Below, in pieces: positions 14,469 to 47,792 of a stretch of DNA of 47,792 nucleotides (positions within the stretch are counted from its first letter, which is position 1; the number at the start of each line of letters is the position of its first letter). Source of the stretch: Sphingorhabdus sp. (GTDB lineage: Bacteria; Pseudomonadota; Alphaproteobacteria; Sphingomonadales; Sphingomonadaceae); assembly GCF_029865925.1 (NCBI RefSeq), contig NZ_JARXAI010000088.1:1-47792 (forward strand). The letters are read 5' to 3'. The position numbers and the translations under genes are program-made. The notes under the pieces were generated by a model that did not search any database, was not told the DNA's origin, and saw only the letters and a program-made list of their open reading frames with translations.

Positions 14469-14525
14469 GCGAATCATCGCGCGCCCCCTTGCCCTCCATC
14501 CAAAAGCCGCCTAACCCCGCCGAAC

Positions 14526-14700
14526 GCACCAGGTCTGCGCGAGAGCGTGGATAATAGGGAAGCCGGCGGAAATCCGGCGCTGTTCCCGCAACTGTAACCG
14601 GCGAGCTTTTGCTCCAAATGCCACTGGAAAAACGGGTGACCGTGAAACTGGGAAGGCGGGGCAAAAGCAGTGACCCGGGAGCCAGGAGACCTGCCTGATT
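14526..14700 (+). promoter_or_regulatory. Cobalamin riboswitch aptamer
   Basis: This leader has the conserved cobalamin aptamer landmarks. They are a GGAAGCCGGCGGAAATCCGGCGC block at 14558-14580 (P3-P4 region), CCCGCAACTGTAA, and the B12 box GCCAGGAGACCTGCC at 14681-14695. CAGGTC (14530-14535) can pair with GACCTG (14688-14693) to close the aptamer. It sits immediately before btuB, whose family is a classic target. With cobalamin bound, expression of the uptake operon would be lowered. Confidence 0.95.
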
Positions 14701-14747
14701 GCGGTTTGTCCTTTGTGCTTGCGGGACACTGGCGCAATCGGGGTTTT
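14697..14747 (+). terminator. Probable riboswitch expression platform (terminator-like hairpin)
   Basis: Directly after the B12 box, GATTGCG (14697-14703) pairs with CGCAATC (14733-14739). TGTCC (14707-14711) pairs with GGACA (14724-14728) inside the same arm. The hairpin is followed by GGGGTTTT, so it could act as a regulated intrinsic terminator. The btuB ribosome-binding site lies another 40 nt downstream and is not in this hairpin. Confidence 0.55.
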
Positions 14748-44776: not shown

Positions 44777-45556
44777 ATGGCCACCGCACCCCAAGCCGCC
44801 AACTTGCCACTTTTGTACAACGACCTGATCCCGCTTAACAGCAACGATCACGTGACCTGGAAATCGCGTATGCTTGAAAACGCGAAATTTATGGATGGAC
44901 AACACGCTATCCCGTTGACGATTGAGGAGTTCGTTCCCGCATCGCGCAACTATCCGATCATTTTTTCCGCGACGGACAATCCCGTGCCGCTGATCCTCAT
45001 GGGCATGAATGAAGGCGTGAACACCTTCATGAACGAAGATGGGCAGTTTGACCGTCCCGTATATATCCCTGCATATATCCGGCGCTATCCCTTCCTGCTT
45101 GCAAAGTTGCGTCCGGATACAGACGAGTTGTCCTTGTGCTTTGACCCAACGTCTGGAGCAGTGGGTGAATTCGACGAAGGCACACCAATGTTCGAAGACG
45201 GCAAGCCAAGCGAGAACACGCAAGCCATTTTGAAGTTCTGTGAAGACTTTGAAAATGCCGGCGCGCAAACGCATGCCTTTGTCGAAGAACTGATAAAACT
45301 CGACCTTCTCATGGACGGCGAAGTGTCCATCCAACAAGAGGGCCAAGAGCAGCCGTTTATCTATCGCGGCTTCAAAATGATTGACGAGACAAAGTTGCGC
45401 GATCTGCGCGGTGACACTGTCCGCAAGTTAAACCAGAATGGTATCTTGGCACTGATCCACGCGCATTTATTCTCGCTGCAATTAATGCGGGAAATATTTG
45501 CAGTTCAGGTCGCACAGGGTAAGGTGCCGCAAGTGACGGAATTGCCTTCGAACTGA
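44777..45556 (+). CDS. SapC family protein
   Basis: Soluble protein of 259 residues belonging to the family named after SapC. Landmarks are LIPLNSNDHVTWKSR, HAIPLTIEEFVPASRNYPIIFS, MGMNEGVNTFMNEDGQF and RPVYIPAYIRRYPFLLA. In sphingomonads these proteins usually accompany TonB receptors and tryptophan-halogenase-like enzymes, but here no such gene is directly adjacent. Despite the name it is not a transport permease, since no membrane segments are present. Its function is unknown. Confidence 0.9.
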   Translation: MATAPQAANLPLLYNDLIPLNSNDHVTWKSRMLENAKFMDGQHAIPLTIEEFVPASRNYPIIFSATDNPVPLILMGMNEGVNTFMNEDGQFDRPVYIPAYIRRYPFLLAKLRPDTDELSLCFDPTSGAVGEFDEGTPMFEDGKPSENTQAILKFCEDFENAGAQTHAFVEELIKLDLLMDGEVSIQQEGQEQPFIYRGFKMIDETKLRDLRGDTVRKLNQNGILALIHAHLFSLQLMREIFAVQVAQGKVPQVTELPSN

Positions 45557-45574: not shown

Positions 45575-45605
45575 TGCCGTCACCCCCTCTTCAGGAGTGA
45601 CGGCA
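45575..45605 (+). promoter_or_regulatory. Stem-loop covering the start of the cytochrome b561 gene
   Basis: TGCCGTCAC (45575-45583) pairs perfectly with GTGACGGCA (45597-45605). The last base of the 3' arm is the A of the ATG, and the ribosome-binding site CAGGAG (45592-45597) is in the 13-nt loop and loop edge. No T-tract follows, so it is not a terminator for sapC. It may modulate translation start. Confidence 0.5.
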
Positions 45606-46129
45606 TGGGCAAATATAGTAAAATCGCGATCCTATTTCATTGGGCGATAGCCCTATTGATTGGCGCCAACATCCTGTTGGCAAATCTGGCGGAAGATCTG
45701 CCTAAGGCGGCGCGCGCGGCTTACATGAGCCCGCATAAGGCCATTGGCATTTCCATTTTGGTCCTGACTGTCGGCCGGATTTTATGGCGCCTTAGCCACC
45801 GTCCACCTGCGATGCCTGACAAGGTGGCTGGTTTACAAGCCAAAGCGGGCCTTACGGTTCACATTTTATTCTACGTCCTCATGATCGTCATGCCACTCAC
45901 AGGTTGGCTCATGATTGGTGCAAATGGCAAAGCCGCGCCAGTGGATTTCTTTGGCCTGTTCACCGTTGATATGGCCATTGGCAAAAATACAATGCTGTCG
46001 GGCTTCGCGCATGAGAGCCACGAATTCTTGGCAACGCCGCTGCTTATTCTCATAGGTCTGCATGTCATGGGCGCGCTGAAGCACCAGTTTATCGACAAGA
46101 TGCCGTTCATTCAACGCATGTGGCCTTAG
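45605..46129 (+). CDS. Cytochrome b561 family protein (cytochrome b)
   Basis: Four-helix membrane protein of 174 residues (ILFHWAIALLIGANILLANLA, HKAIGISILVLTVGRILWRL, HILFYVLMIVMPLTGWLMI, PLLILIGLHVMGALKHQFID). Haem-ligand histidines sit in the helices as in the bacterial b561 type (FHWAIA, SPHKAIG, LHVMGALKH). It would pass electrons between quinol and a periplasmic acceptor, possibly superoxide as in CybB. The ATG at 45605 has CAGGAG seven bases upstream; the stem-loop described separately covers this region. Confidence 0.9.
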   Translation: MGKYSKIAILFHWAIALLIGANILLANLAEDLPKAARAAYMSPHKAIGISILVLTVGRILWRLSHRPPAMPDKVAGLQAKAGLTVHILFYVLMIVMPLTGWLMIGANGKAAPVDFFGLFTVDMAIGKNTMLSGFAHESHEFLATPLLILIGLHVMGALKHQFIDKMPFIQRMWP

Positions 46130-46199
46130 GCAGCTAACGCACATTTCCCCACAATATTCCGGCGACTGGCCGCCTGCGGGGATAAAATACGAATTTGAG

Positions 46200-46229
46200 T
46201 CTTGAAACTGACACGAGAAGAGCCCATTT
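46200..46229 (+). promoter_or_regulatory. Candidate sigma32 (RpoH)-type promoter
   Basis: CTTGAAA (46201-46207), a 15-nt spacer, then CCCATTT (46223-46229). This is very close to the RpoH heat-shock consensus (CTTGAAA, N11-16, CCCCATNT). A transcript would start near 46235, exactly before the first hairpin of the candidate small RNA. Confidence 0.6.
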
Positions 46230-46234
46230 CTAGT

Positions 46235-46337
46235 ACTGGATGGAATCATCCCCTCCCGTTTCCATCCAACCGGTGCCTGCATGGGCACCAACTCCCTGAA
46301 CCTTGGCCACCCCGGAACATTCCGGGGTGGTTTTTTT
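46235..46337 (+). ncRNA. Candidate small RNA with C-rich anti-Shine-Dalgarno loop
   Basis: About 103 nt, no open reading frame, three hairpins. Hairpin 1 has a 9-bp stem TGGATGGAA/TTCCATCCA (46237-46245, 46260-46268) with a 14-nt loop containing CCCCTCCC. Hairpin 2 is GGTGCC/GGCACC (46272-46277, 46284-46289). A single-stranded linker carries ACTCCCTG. Hairpin 3 is CCACCCCGGAA/TTCCGGGGTGG (46307-46330) followed by T7, a strong terminator. Loops rich in CCUCCUCCC-like sequence are the hallmark of the alphaproteobacterial CcsR, cuckoo and alpha-r14 sRNAs, which pair with ribosome-binding sites. Membership is inferred from these features only. Confidence 0.6.
46307..46337 (+). terminator. Strong intrinsic terminator
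   Basis: Eleven-base arms CCACCCCGGAA and TTCCGGGGTGG followed by TTTTTTT (46331-46337). It ends the candidate sRNA and any read-through from cytochrome b561. It has no T-tract on the minus strand, so it does not serve the convergent amidohydrolase gene. Confidence 0.93.
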
Positions 46338-46343
46338 ACGCCT

Positions 46344-47213
46344 TCATTCGGCGGCAATCAGCGCGGCAGAGCCTAAGGCCTCGTCTGCAAGCGCGGCGAC
46401 AAGGGCTGGGATAAGCGCACTGATGCGATCAAGGCCGTCACCGGGCTGACGCAAATCGGGATCGAGATAGAGCGACCTGTCGACTTCGAGTTGAAGGGCG
46501 TGGATGTTCGCGCGCGGCCTTGCATGACGGCGCAAGATATACGCGCCAGCATAGGGATGGTTCAGCGCCGCAACATAACCCTGGGCATGCAGTCGCGATA
46601 ACAGCAGCTCTGCATATATGGACGCTGCGCTTTTACCGAACCGGTCGCCGACCACAAATTGCGGCGCGGGTCCGTCAGCGGCGCTGCGGATTGGCGGCAT
46701 GCTGTGTAAATCCAGCAGGATAGCGACCCCGAACCTTTGCCGCATACGCTCCAGTATCGCGCCGACTGTGTCATGATAAGGCTGGTGGAGGGATGTTATA
46801 CGGTGCTGCACTTCATCCAGCGTGAACTGACGCTTCCAAAGCTCACCCTCCCCTGAGAGCCGCCGCGGGATGAGGCCAAGGCCGCCCCGCGTTTTGACCC
46901 CGGGGCTTGGATAATCCCCCCGCTGCGCCCCTTGCACCATATCTGCGTCGACATCCTGCGTGTCCCGGTTCAGGTCAATCCACGCCCGCGCTCGGTGCGC
47001 CATAATTACGGGATGCCCCATTTGCACGCAACGGCGCGTCAGCAGGTCAGCATATCGGTCCTCAAGCCGAACCAGAGCGGCAGGCGGAAGCCGAAGTGCG
47101 TCGTAAATGTCATTGGGATAATCGCGCCCGGCATGGGGCACGGACAGCAACACCGGGACCGATGGCGCATCGGTGCCCCAACTTGCAAACCCATCTGCAT
47201 CCCGTGTCGTCAC
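46344..47213 (-). CDS. N-formylglutamate amidohydrolase
   Basis: Hydrolase of about 289 residues related to HutG-type N-formylglutamate deformylase. Landmarks are PVLLSVPHAGRDYPNDIYDAL, EDRYADLLTRRCVQMGHPVIMAHRARAWIDLNRD, LLDLHSMPP, FVVGDRFGKSA and IHALQLEVDRSLYLD. The start is uncertain. A GTG at 47213 has AAGGTGAGG at ideal spacing, while GTGs at 47225 and 47270 are also open. No other histidine-utilisation genes are present; in other Alphaproteobacteria a gene of this type is also found beside cpdR. It is divergent from cpdR. Confidence 0.9.
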   Translation of the reverse strand: MTTRDADGFASWGTDAPSVPVLLSVPHAGRDYPNDIYDALRLPPAALVRLEDRYADLLTRRCVQMGHPVIMAHRARAWIDLNRDTQDVDADMVQGAQRGDYPSPGVKTRGGLGLIPRRLSGEGELWKRQFTLDEVQHRITSLHQPYHDTVGAILERMRQRFGVAILLDLHSMPPIRSAADGPAPQFVVGDRFGKSAASIYAELLLSRLHAQGYVAALNHPYAGAYILRRHARPRANIHALQLEVDRSLYLDPDLRQPGDGLDRISALIPALVAALADEALGSAALIAAE

Positions 47214-47347
47214 GTGCGTCCTCACCTTGCTCCCAGTGATTATTGGCAGATAATTGGCAAGATGGTGCACAAAAAATTAATTCTCCGCAATTATTCAGGT
47301 TGTTCAGGGCGACGCCCGCATTGTCTAGGGATTTTTAAGGACCGGTG

Positions 47348-47725
47348 ATGTTCCGCATTTTGCTCGCTGAAGATGAACAGGTCATGCACGCATATCTCGC
47401 GCAGGCGTTGGAACGATCGGGCTATAAAGTCGTCGCTGTTGATCGTGGCACCGCAGCCGCGCCCTTGCTCGAGGCAGAGCGGTTCGGCTTGTTGCTCACC
47501 GACATAATCATACCGGAAATGCACAGGATCCAACTCGCGCGCCATTGCGACACGGTTTCGCCAAGCACCGAAGTCATATTCATCACAGGATTTTCCGGCG
47601 TCACCCTGCGCGCCGGCGCGTCGATACCAAATGCCAAGGTTCTGGCTAAACCCTTCCATCTCAAGGATCTGGTTCTGGAGGTCGAGCGGCTCTATGCCAA
47701 GGAAAGCTTAGGCGAATTGAAATAG
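47348..47725 (+). CDS. cpdR: Single-domain response regulator CpdR
   Basis: Receiver-only protein of 125 residues. In Caulobacter, unphosphorylated CpdR brings ClpXP to the cell pole and primes it to degrade cell-cycle proteins. The family is recognised from RILLAEDEQVMHAYLAQALE, VDRGTAAAPLLEAERFGLLLTD and the C-terminal AKVLAKPFHLKDLVLEVERLY. Receiver residues are the acidic triad near 8-10, phospho-acceptor Asp52, Thr80 and Lys101. After the acceptor the loop reads PEMHRIQLA where CpdR normally has PEMDGIELA. The ATG at 47348 with AAGGA upstream is preferred over a GTG at 47345. Confidence 0.92.
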   Translation: MFRILLAEDEQVMHAYLAQALERSGYKVVAVDRGTAAAPLLEAERFGLLLTDIIIPEMHRIQLARHCDTVSPSTEVIFITGFSGVTLRAGASIPNAKVLAKPFHLKDLVLEVERLYAKESLGELK

Positions 47726-47768: not shown

Positions 47769-47792
47769 GGGCGTATAGCTCAGTGGTAGAGC
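47769..47792 (+). tRNA. 5' part of a tRNA (cut by window edge)
   Basis: GGGCGTATAGCTCAGTGGTA followed by GAGC is an acceptor strand plus a complete D-arm (AGCTCAGTGGTAGAGC). The anticodon lies outside the window. Similar sequences occur in alphaproteobacterial valine and alanine tRNAs, so the identity is left open. Confidence 0.9.

Follow-up and report, generated by a model that had tools for sequence, protein, structure and literature searches.

A sphingomonad small-RNA gene beside N-formylglutamate amidohydrolase: a diverged alpha-R8 RNA with a likely RpoH-type promoter and a second anti-Shine-Dalgarno-like loop

The window, i.e., the whole stretch of 47,792 nucleotides of Sphingorhabdus DNA analysed here, carries near its right end a small-RNA gene that lies between a cytochrome b561-like gene, preceded by a SapC-family gene, and a convergent gene for N-formylglutamate amidohydrolase (FGase), beyond which stands a CpdR-like response regulator gene (Table 1). 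These four neighbours were scanned against Pfam, smaller open reading frames lying outside the scan, and the -35 box of the small-RNA gene starts 72 nt past the end of the b561 gene. An earlier note, made from the letters alone, had described the RNA stretch as free of reading frames; this does not hold, as two mechanical open reading frames with TTG starts cross it, one of 70 aa on the plus strand and one of 163 aa on the minus strand. Elsewhere in the window, a cobalamin riboswitch (14514-14713, plus strand, 117.1 bits) is the only Rfam match at cut-off. By eye, the window ends inside a tRNA gene (47771-47792), and two congeners (L002, L003) have a tRNA gene after their CpdR-like gene.

Table 1. 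Features of the small-RNA locus, in window coordinates.
Feature	Position	Strand	Basis
SapC-family gene, upstream anchor	44777..45556	+	Pfam PF07277
Cytochrome b561-like gene, upstream	45605..46129	+	Pfam PF01292; scan from inner ATG
-35 element CTTGAA	46201..46206	+	Read directly in the sequence
-10 element CCCATTT	46223..46229	+	16-nt spacer from -35; read directly
Small RNA gene, ~100 nt	46235..46337	+	Fold; start inferred from promoter
Hairpin 1 (5' hairpin)	46237..46268	+	Fold; C-rich motif enclosed; covariation
Loop motif CCCCTCCC, anti-Shine-Dalgarno-like	46250..46257	+	C-rich motif kept across 92 loci
Hairpin 2	46272..46289	+	Fold; both sides changed in 5 of the 6 pairs counted
Core CTCCCTGAACC	46292..46302	+	Counterpart of alpha-R8 stretch UUUCCUCCCU; Rfam suhB alignment
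Intrinsic terminator, T7	46305..46337	+	Fold; 100% paired cells in 24 sequences
FGase gene, convergent	46344..47270	-	Pfam PF05013, 216.9 bits
CpdR-like response regulator gene, syntenic anchor	47345..47725	+	Pfam PF00072

In the predicted fold of 46230-46345, the first hairpin has 9 pairs (46237-46245/46260-46268) and a 14-nt loop holding the C-rich motif, the second has 7 pairs, one of them G-U (46272-46278/46283-46289), and the third is a terminator with a 12-pair stem (46305-46332) followed by the T7 tail (46331-46337) that had been noted before. The core between the last two hairpins is predicted to be single-stranded and contains the second unpaired CTCCC of the earlier description; the three consecutive hairpins of that description also stand, while the word "perfect" does not, as G-U pairs are included. 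The minimum free energy is -48.5 kcal/mol, whereas shuffled sequences give -31.4 (sd 3.3; z -5.19), and none of 200 shuffles was as good. The promoter, the C-rich hairpin-1 loop, hairpin 2, the core and the terminator were common to 30 loci, of which 24 sequences, six with odd hairpin-1 loops being excluded, formed the covariation set and the covariance model R1. For the whole structure, 91.7% of the cells were paired and both sides had changed in 15 of 27 pairs; the paired percentage, the double-change cells and the covariation score were each matched by 0/500 shuffles, and the weaker measures, the number of double-change pairs and of pair types, by 7/500 and 28/500, respectively. Hairpin 1 alone gave 77.5% paired cells and again 0/500 on the same three measures, with 140/500 for double-change pairs and 84/500 for pair types, figures that are lowered by a faulty alignment of the three sequences from the window's genus.

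The structure was followed over 92 distinct loci, which were left when duplicates had been taken out of 105 locus ids, the genomes with a match numbering 171. Of these loci, 91 have all three hairpins, and the C-rich motif, already pointed out in the window, lies inside hairpin 1 in all 92 and is predicted to be unpaired in 91, reading CCCTCAT in 59, CCCC(C/T) in 30 and CCCCTCCC in the 3 loci of the window's genus. Each core base is identical in at least 88 of the 92 loci, which were located with an anchor tolerating 5 substitutions. The CTCCC core is predicted to be unpaired in only 52 loci, since some folds pair the core with the 5' end, and in 91 loci the -10 box and the core lie between 53 and 75 nt apart.

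A blastn search with the stretch matched 111 of 199 family genomes, mostly through its 3' half, and R1, whose match on the window covers 46229-46339, was found in 171 of the 199 Sphingomonadaceae genomes at E ≤ 0.01, nearly always as one copy. Among four sampled genomes of the genus, the congener G068 had no match by blastn or R1 and the other three did; a suhB-like stretch in G068 (L065) was considered as the missing sibling and rejected, as 0/5 neighbour proteins lie beside it. Apart from this genome, the conservation that had been proposed as a check is seen in the relatives, with compensatory stem changes and with the C-rich loop and the promoter kept. The gene had also been called an orphan, but it holds a fixed place: tblastn with the window proteins found a convergent FGase gene just downstream in 91/92 loci, the CpdR-like gene downstream in 88/92 and the SapC gene upstream in 87/92, while b561 was found in 10/92 and not in the other 82. 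In addition, a core-pattern search over named genomes returned at least 119 stretches; the 80 matches listed belong mostly to Sphingomonas, Sphingobium, Novosphingobium, Erythrobacter and their relatives, with a few unrelated bacteria, and FGase lies somewhere in the locus, at any distance, in 68 of these 80. The nearest record among the listed matches is a Sphingorhabdus MAG (80% over 3.7 kb), no match to the RNA was found among plasmids, and no viral relative of FGase was found. Judged by genome comparison, this is a small-RNA gene conserved across sphingomonads at a fixed gene address, and the comparison shows a predicted three-hairpin RNA with a terminator, a fixed neighbourhood, a core CUCCCUGAACC that hardly varies and a 5'-hairpin loop rich in C.

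At its own cut-offs, Rfam has no match on the RNA stretch. When the cut-offs are lifted, suhB/mmgR (RF00519) comes first with 37.1 bits (E 2e-6), short of its cut-off of 41 bits, which 1 of 20 sibling loci passes. Of the two Rfam names proposed for checking, suhB was recovered below cut-off, and no model named alpha-r14 was among the 9 matches with E up to 10. Over 385 genomes of the class, R1 matched 36, 4 in the family and 32 weakly outside it; 26 of the outside loci were fetched, FGase lies in 17 of them, and 17 of the 20 run against Rfam are suhB above cut-off. A suhB search of the class matched 196/385 genomes at E ≤ 1e-4, and outside the family a convergent FGase gene lies downstream in 53 of 70 suhB loci (38 of 50 families), these 70 being the 30 best plus 40 hand-chosen, one from each of 40 families, and overlapping partly with the 26 above. 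The whole-genome suhB search of four genus genomes omitted the window's own site, which otherwise scored 37.1 bits, so the first look of such a search can miss this kind of RNA.

In the available text of PMC12559287, alpha-R8 (αR8) RNAs are described as having UUUCCUCCCU in common and as lying, as a single RNA, beside FGase in most species. The window, with CCAACTCCCT, retains the last six bases of UUUCCUCCCU, and the sibling consensus ACCTCCTCCCT retains more. A hairpin before the core and an intrinsic terminator after it are present, and the gene adjoins FGase, a trait of most, not all, αR8 members. Taken together, FGase synteny, core and predicted terminator identify the window RNA as the αR8 RNA of this locus, i.e., the FGase-linked αR8 RNA of sphingomonads; since the Rfam cut-off is a detection rule, it is called here a diverged αR8 orthologue or variant and not a member of RF00519. 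The family assignment is therefore changed from CcsR/alpha-r14 to suhB/alpha-R8, which the earlier note had named only for checking: a real gene had been spotted correctly and with the right logic, under the wrong family name. What is likely to be new is the second anti-Shine-Dalgarno-like loop together with an RpoH-type promoter on an FGase-linked αR8 RNA. No description of this sphingomonad RNA was recognised in the literature searched, though the αR8 phylogeny of Lagares 2016 may already include it, and the accessible parts of the Zymomonas small-RNA papers and of PMC2245857 gave no link to it. As separate observations, four loci of another family (f37; L138, L142, L145, L147) have αR8 RNAs with a long 5' hairpin and the loop region TTTCTCCCCTGACA, possibly a second C-rich loop that arose independently, and in L545 (G250, C34) the αR8 stretch GTTTCCTCCCT is present twice at short distance.

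The usual sphingomonad suhB is a second copy elsewhere in the genome, as judged from gene positions. A suhB match occurs in 190 of the 199 family genomes (160 above cut-off), and none of the 30 best-scoring sphingomonad suhB loci has FGase, CpdR-like, SapC or b561 genes. The idea that the blastn matches and the suhB matches are one gene was rejected, as they lie at different places in the compared genomes that have both, such as G061, G141, G194 and G133. The suhB-type copy of the window's own genome (L064, C64:33942-34017, minus strand, 33.2 bits) has the upstream elements GTTGCA..TGCAAC and TTCGCACTTGCACAA, common to its genus.

The promoter of the window, CTTGAA-N16-CCCATTT, is the same site as the CTTGAAA-N15-CCCATTT read previously. 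A two-box motif search over the 92 loci gave CTTGAA-N15/16-C(C/T)TAT(C/T/A)T, with a spacer of 16 in 61 loci and 15 in 31, and with AA, CA and AC as the last two -35 bases in 66, 15 and 2 loci, respectively; the two matching congeners have CCCATTC as -10 box. The learned motif scores at least 10 in 88 loci, the others being L018, L185, L200 and L177, in the last of which it found no site. This motif fits the RpoH1 consensus CTTGAA-N15-16-CCTATAT given in the available text of PMC4843759, where only rpoH1 is reported to be found in Sphingomonadales. Moreover, 19 of 27 Hsp20 loci from the family have the same boxes, and the remaining 8 look like further Hsp20 copies. A matrix of these 19 Hsp20 promoters scores at least 10 in 78/92 sRNA promoters, against 15/920 random stretches of the same loci and 2/920 shuffles, a match that is partly circular because the sRNA matrix served to select the 19 of 27 and an RpoH-like guess was the starting point for the motif search. 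The window scores 16.4 and the two matching congeners only 10.9. The same threshold is reached by 5/30 sphingomonad suhB genes and by 9/68 outside-family αR8 genes (the 70 suhB loci minus 2 without a recognisable core). To this extent, the heat-shock-type promoter proposed for the window is conserved among its siblings.

On the other side, clpB promoters reach 12 in 2/20 and groES promoters in 5/12, the groES boxes of the family read CTTGAC or GTTGAC in 11/12, and a palindrome, presumably CIRCE, is present at the groES promoters. The pattern CTTGAAA-N12-16-CCCATNT has 3 sites in the window's own genome assembly and its reversed control 1, and a sigma-70 consensus scan of 46050-46400 found no promoter. 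In this class, RpoH promoters resemble RpoD promoters. In addition, many other-family αR8 genes among those listed (L477-L546) share upstream boxes, among them TTTGTGCGGCGCA and TTGTGCATCGCGGCAT, in the area of the presumed promoter, often with an upstream hairpin. In 3 of 99 genomes (G052, G056, G040), the main rpoH is accompanied by another RpoH-like gene, whose 274-286 bits stay under the family cut-off.

The search for targets remained near chance, with 72 perfect core complements before an ATG in 99 genomes and 61 for the reversed pattern, and no target class emerged from it. In 30 loci inspected there were 29 matches, 6 of them flagged as like the sRNA gene read backwards; L382 is one more such match by position, and L385 was flagged in this way, yet lies away from that genome's model match. 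At L385 (G050:C3:70069), CCAAGGTTCAGGGAG, complementary to the family core over 15 nt, stands 7 nt before an ATG whose reading frame has a signal-like start. At another locus (L476, G022:C241:7581), GTTCAGGGAG stands before rpoH and is perfectly complementary to the core over 10 nt. For 70 rpoH leaders, many of which have uncertain starts, the median duplex energy was -15.9 against -15.2 for shuffles and -10.8 to -14.4 for control genes, and AGGGAG occurs in 13/70 of them against 7/303 control leaders; feedback of the RNA on rpoH is only hinted at by these figures.

The function proposed for the sphingomonad RNA is modelled on SisA of Caulobacter, which represses many targets, likely through UUUCCUCCCU (PMC12559287, available text), and on SuhB of Sphingopyxis granuli, which reduces thnR translation with Hfq (PMC6563040, available text). 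We regard it as probable that the window encodes the single-copy, trans-acting, FGase-linked αR8 RNA of Sphingomonadaceae, driven by RpoH and blocking translation at ribosome-binding sites; that is, we infer a stress-induced repressor of translation. RNA polymerase with RpoH would transcribe the gene during heat or protein-damage stress, Hfq would probably be bound at the U-tail, whose seven residues fit putative Hfq binding, and the core and the hairpin-1 loop might pair with ribosome-binding sites rich in purines (GGGAG/GAGGG) on many mRNAs. Such pairing could block their translation, as proposed for SisA, and growth functions would be lowered while chaperones are made. A wider reading, which we put forward only tentatively, is that in the Sphingomonadaceae the ancestral FGase-linked αR8 RNA was recruited to the heat-shock regulon, gained another anti-Shine-Dalgarno loop and so became a global, dual-site heat-stress translation brake, with the nutritional role passing to the paralogue SuhB and perhaps feedback on rpoH in some species.

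Three other readings were weighed. The αR8 RNA could be transcribed by the housekeeping sigma factor, its likeness to RpoH promoters being consensus overlap and its expression following growth or carbon as in SisA and SuhB. Studied αR8 relatives indeed respond to carbon supply or growth rate according to the available texts of PMC12559287 and PMC6563040, the -35 box ends in CA or AC in 17/92 loci, and the family's groES boxes (CTTGAC or GTTGAC in 11/12) are similar; however, the majority of loci have the CTTGAA type, the -10 box resembles that of Hsp20 genes of the same family, the region has no sigma-70 match, and the promoter is mostly not shared by suhB or by other αR8 genes, which makes this explanation unlikely. 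It is far less credible that the hairpins only form the 3' UTR or terminator of the transcript of SapC and b561 and have no function of their own: the -35 box does lie 72 nt past the b561 end and the stretch closes with a terminator, but the RNA has its own conserved promoter at similar distance and covarying 5' hairpins, and b561 was not found in 82/92 loci.

Membership of the alpha-r14/cuckoo/CcsR group, the kinship originally suggested, would account for the three hairpins, for the C-rich unpaired stretches and for an RpoH-type promoter, as the CcsR operon has an RpoHI/RpoHII promoter in the available text of PMC10253847, and CCTCCTCCC occurs in 29/92 siblings. In alpha-r14/cuckoo RNAs, however, each of the three hairpins carries CCUCCUCCC (PMC10746234, available text), which is absent from the window RNA (46235-46337) and from 63/92 siblings, and CcsR (CIN1 locus) is described as co-transcribed with a DUF1127 gene, whereas none of the four scanned neighbours is DUF1127. 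None of the 9 Rfam matches with E up to 10 bears such a name, although Rfam may hold no such model, and FGase synteny favours alpha-R8; this kinship is thus highly improbable.

If the RpoH-driven αR8 reading is true, sphingomonads possess a conserved candidate stress RNA that the Rfam cut-off mostly misses, and an old regulatory RNA would have changed its input, the promoter, and come to have twice as many sites for pairing, with an unchanged gene address throughout a bacterial class. A division of labour between two αR8 copies also becomes directly testable.

Compared with known systems, the RNA resembles alpha-r14/NfeR1, the cuckoo RNAs and CcsR1-4 in having several C-rich anti-Shine-Dalgarno stretches, but theirs come as one CCUCCUCCC per hairpin or within a DUF1127 operon, and no homology was found here. 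SuhB of Sphingopyxis granuli and the usual sphingomonad suhB share the superfamily and a CUCUCCC-type core with it, whereas the window RNA is a separate gene with another promoter and other neighbours. The closest likeness is to the αR8 RNAs themselves (MmgR of Sinorhizobium meliloti, SisA-D of Caulobacter), with which it has in common the FGase-linked place, the hairpin, the CUCCCU stretch with its anti-Shine-Dalgarno signature and the terminator. It differs from them in that the sphingomonad RNA is mostly under the Rfam cut-off, the sequence of hairpin 2 is another, and the 5'-hairpin loop is C-rich in sphingomonads, CCCT/CCCC being absent there in 56/68 outside-family αR8 genes (the stretches counted differ a little, running from -62 to -18 for siblings and from -62 to -22 elsewhere); moreover, an RpoH-type promoter stands before most sphingomonad siblings and before only 9/68 αR8 genes elsewhere.
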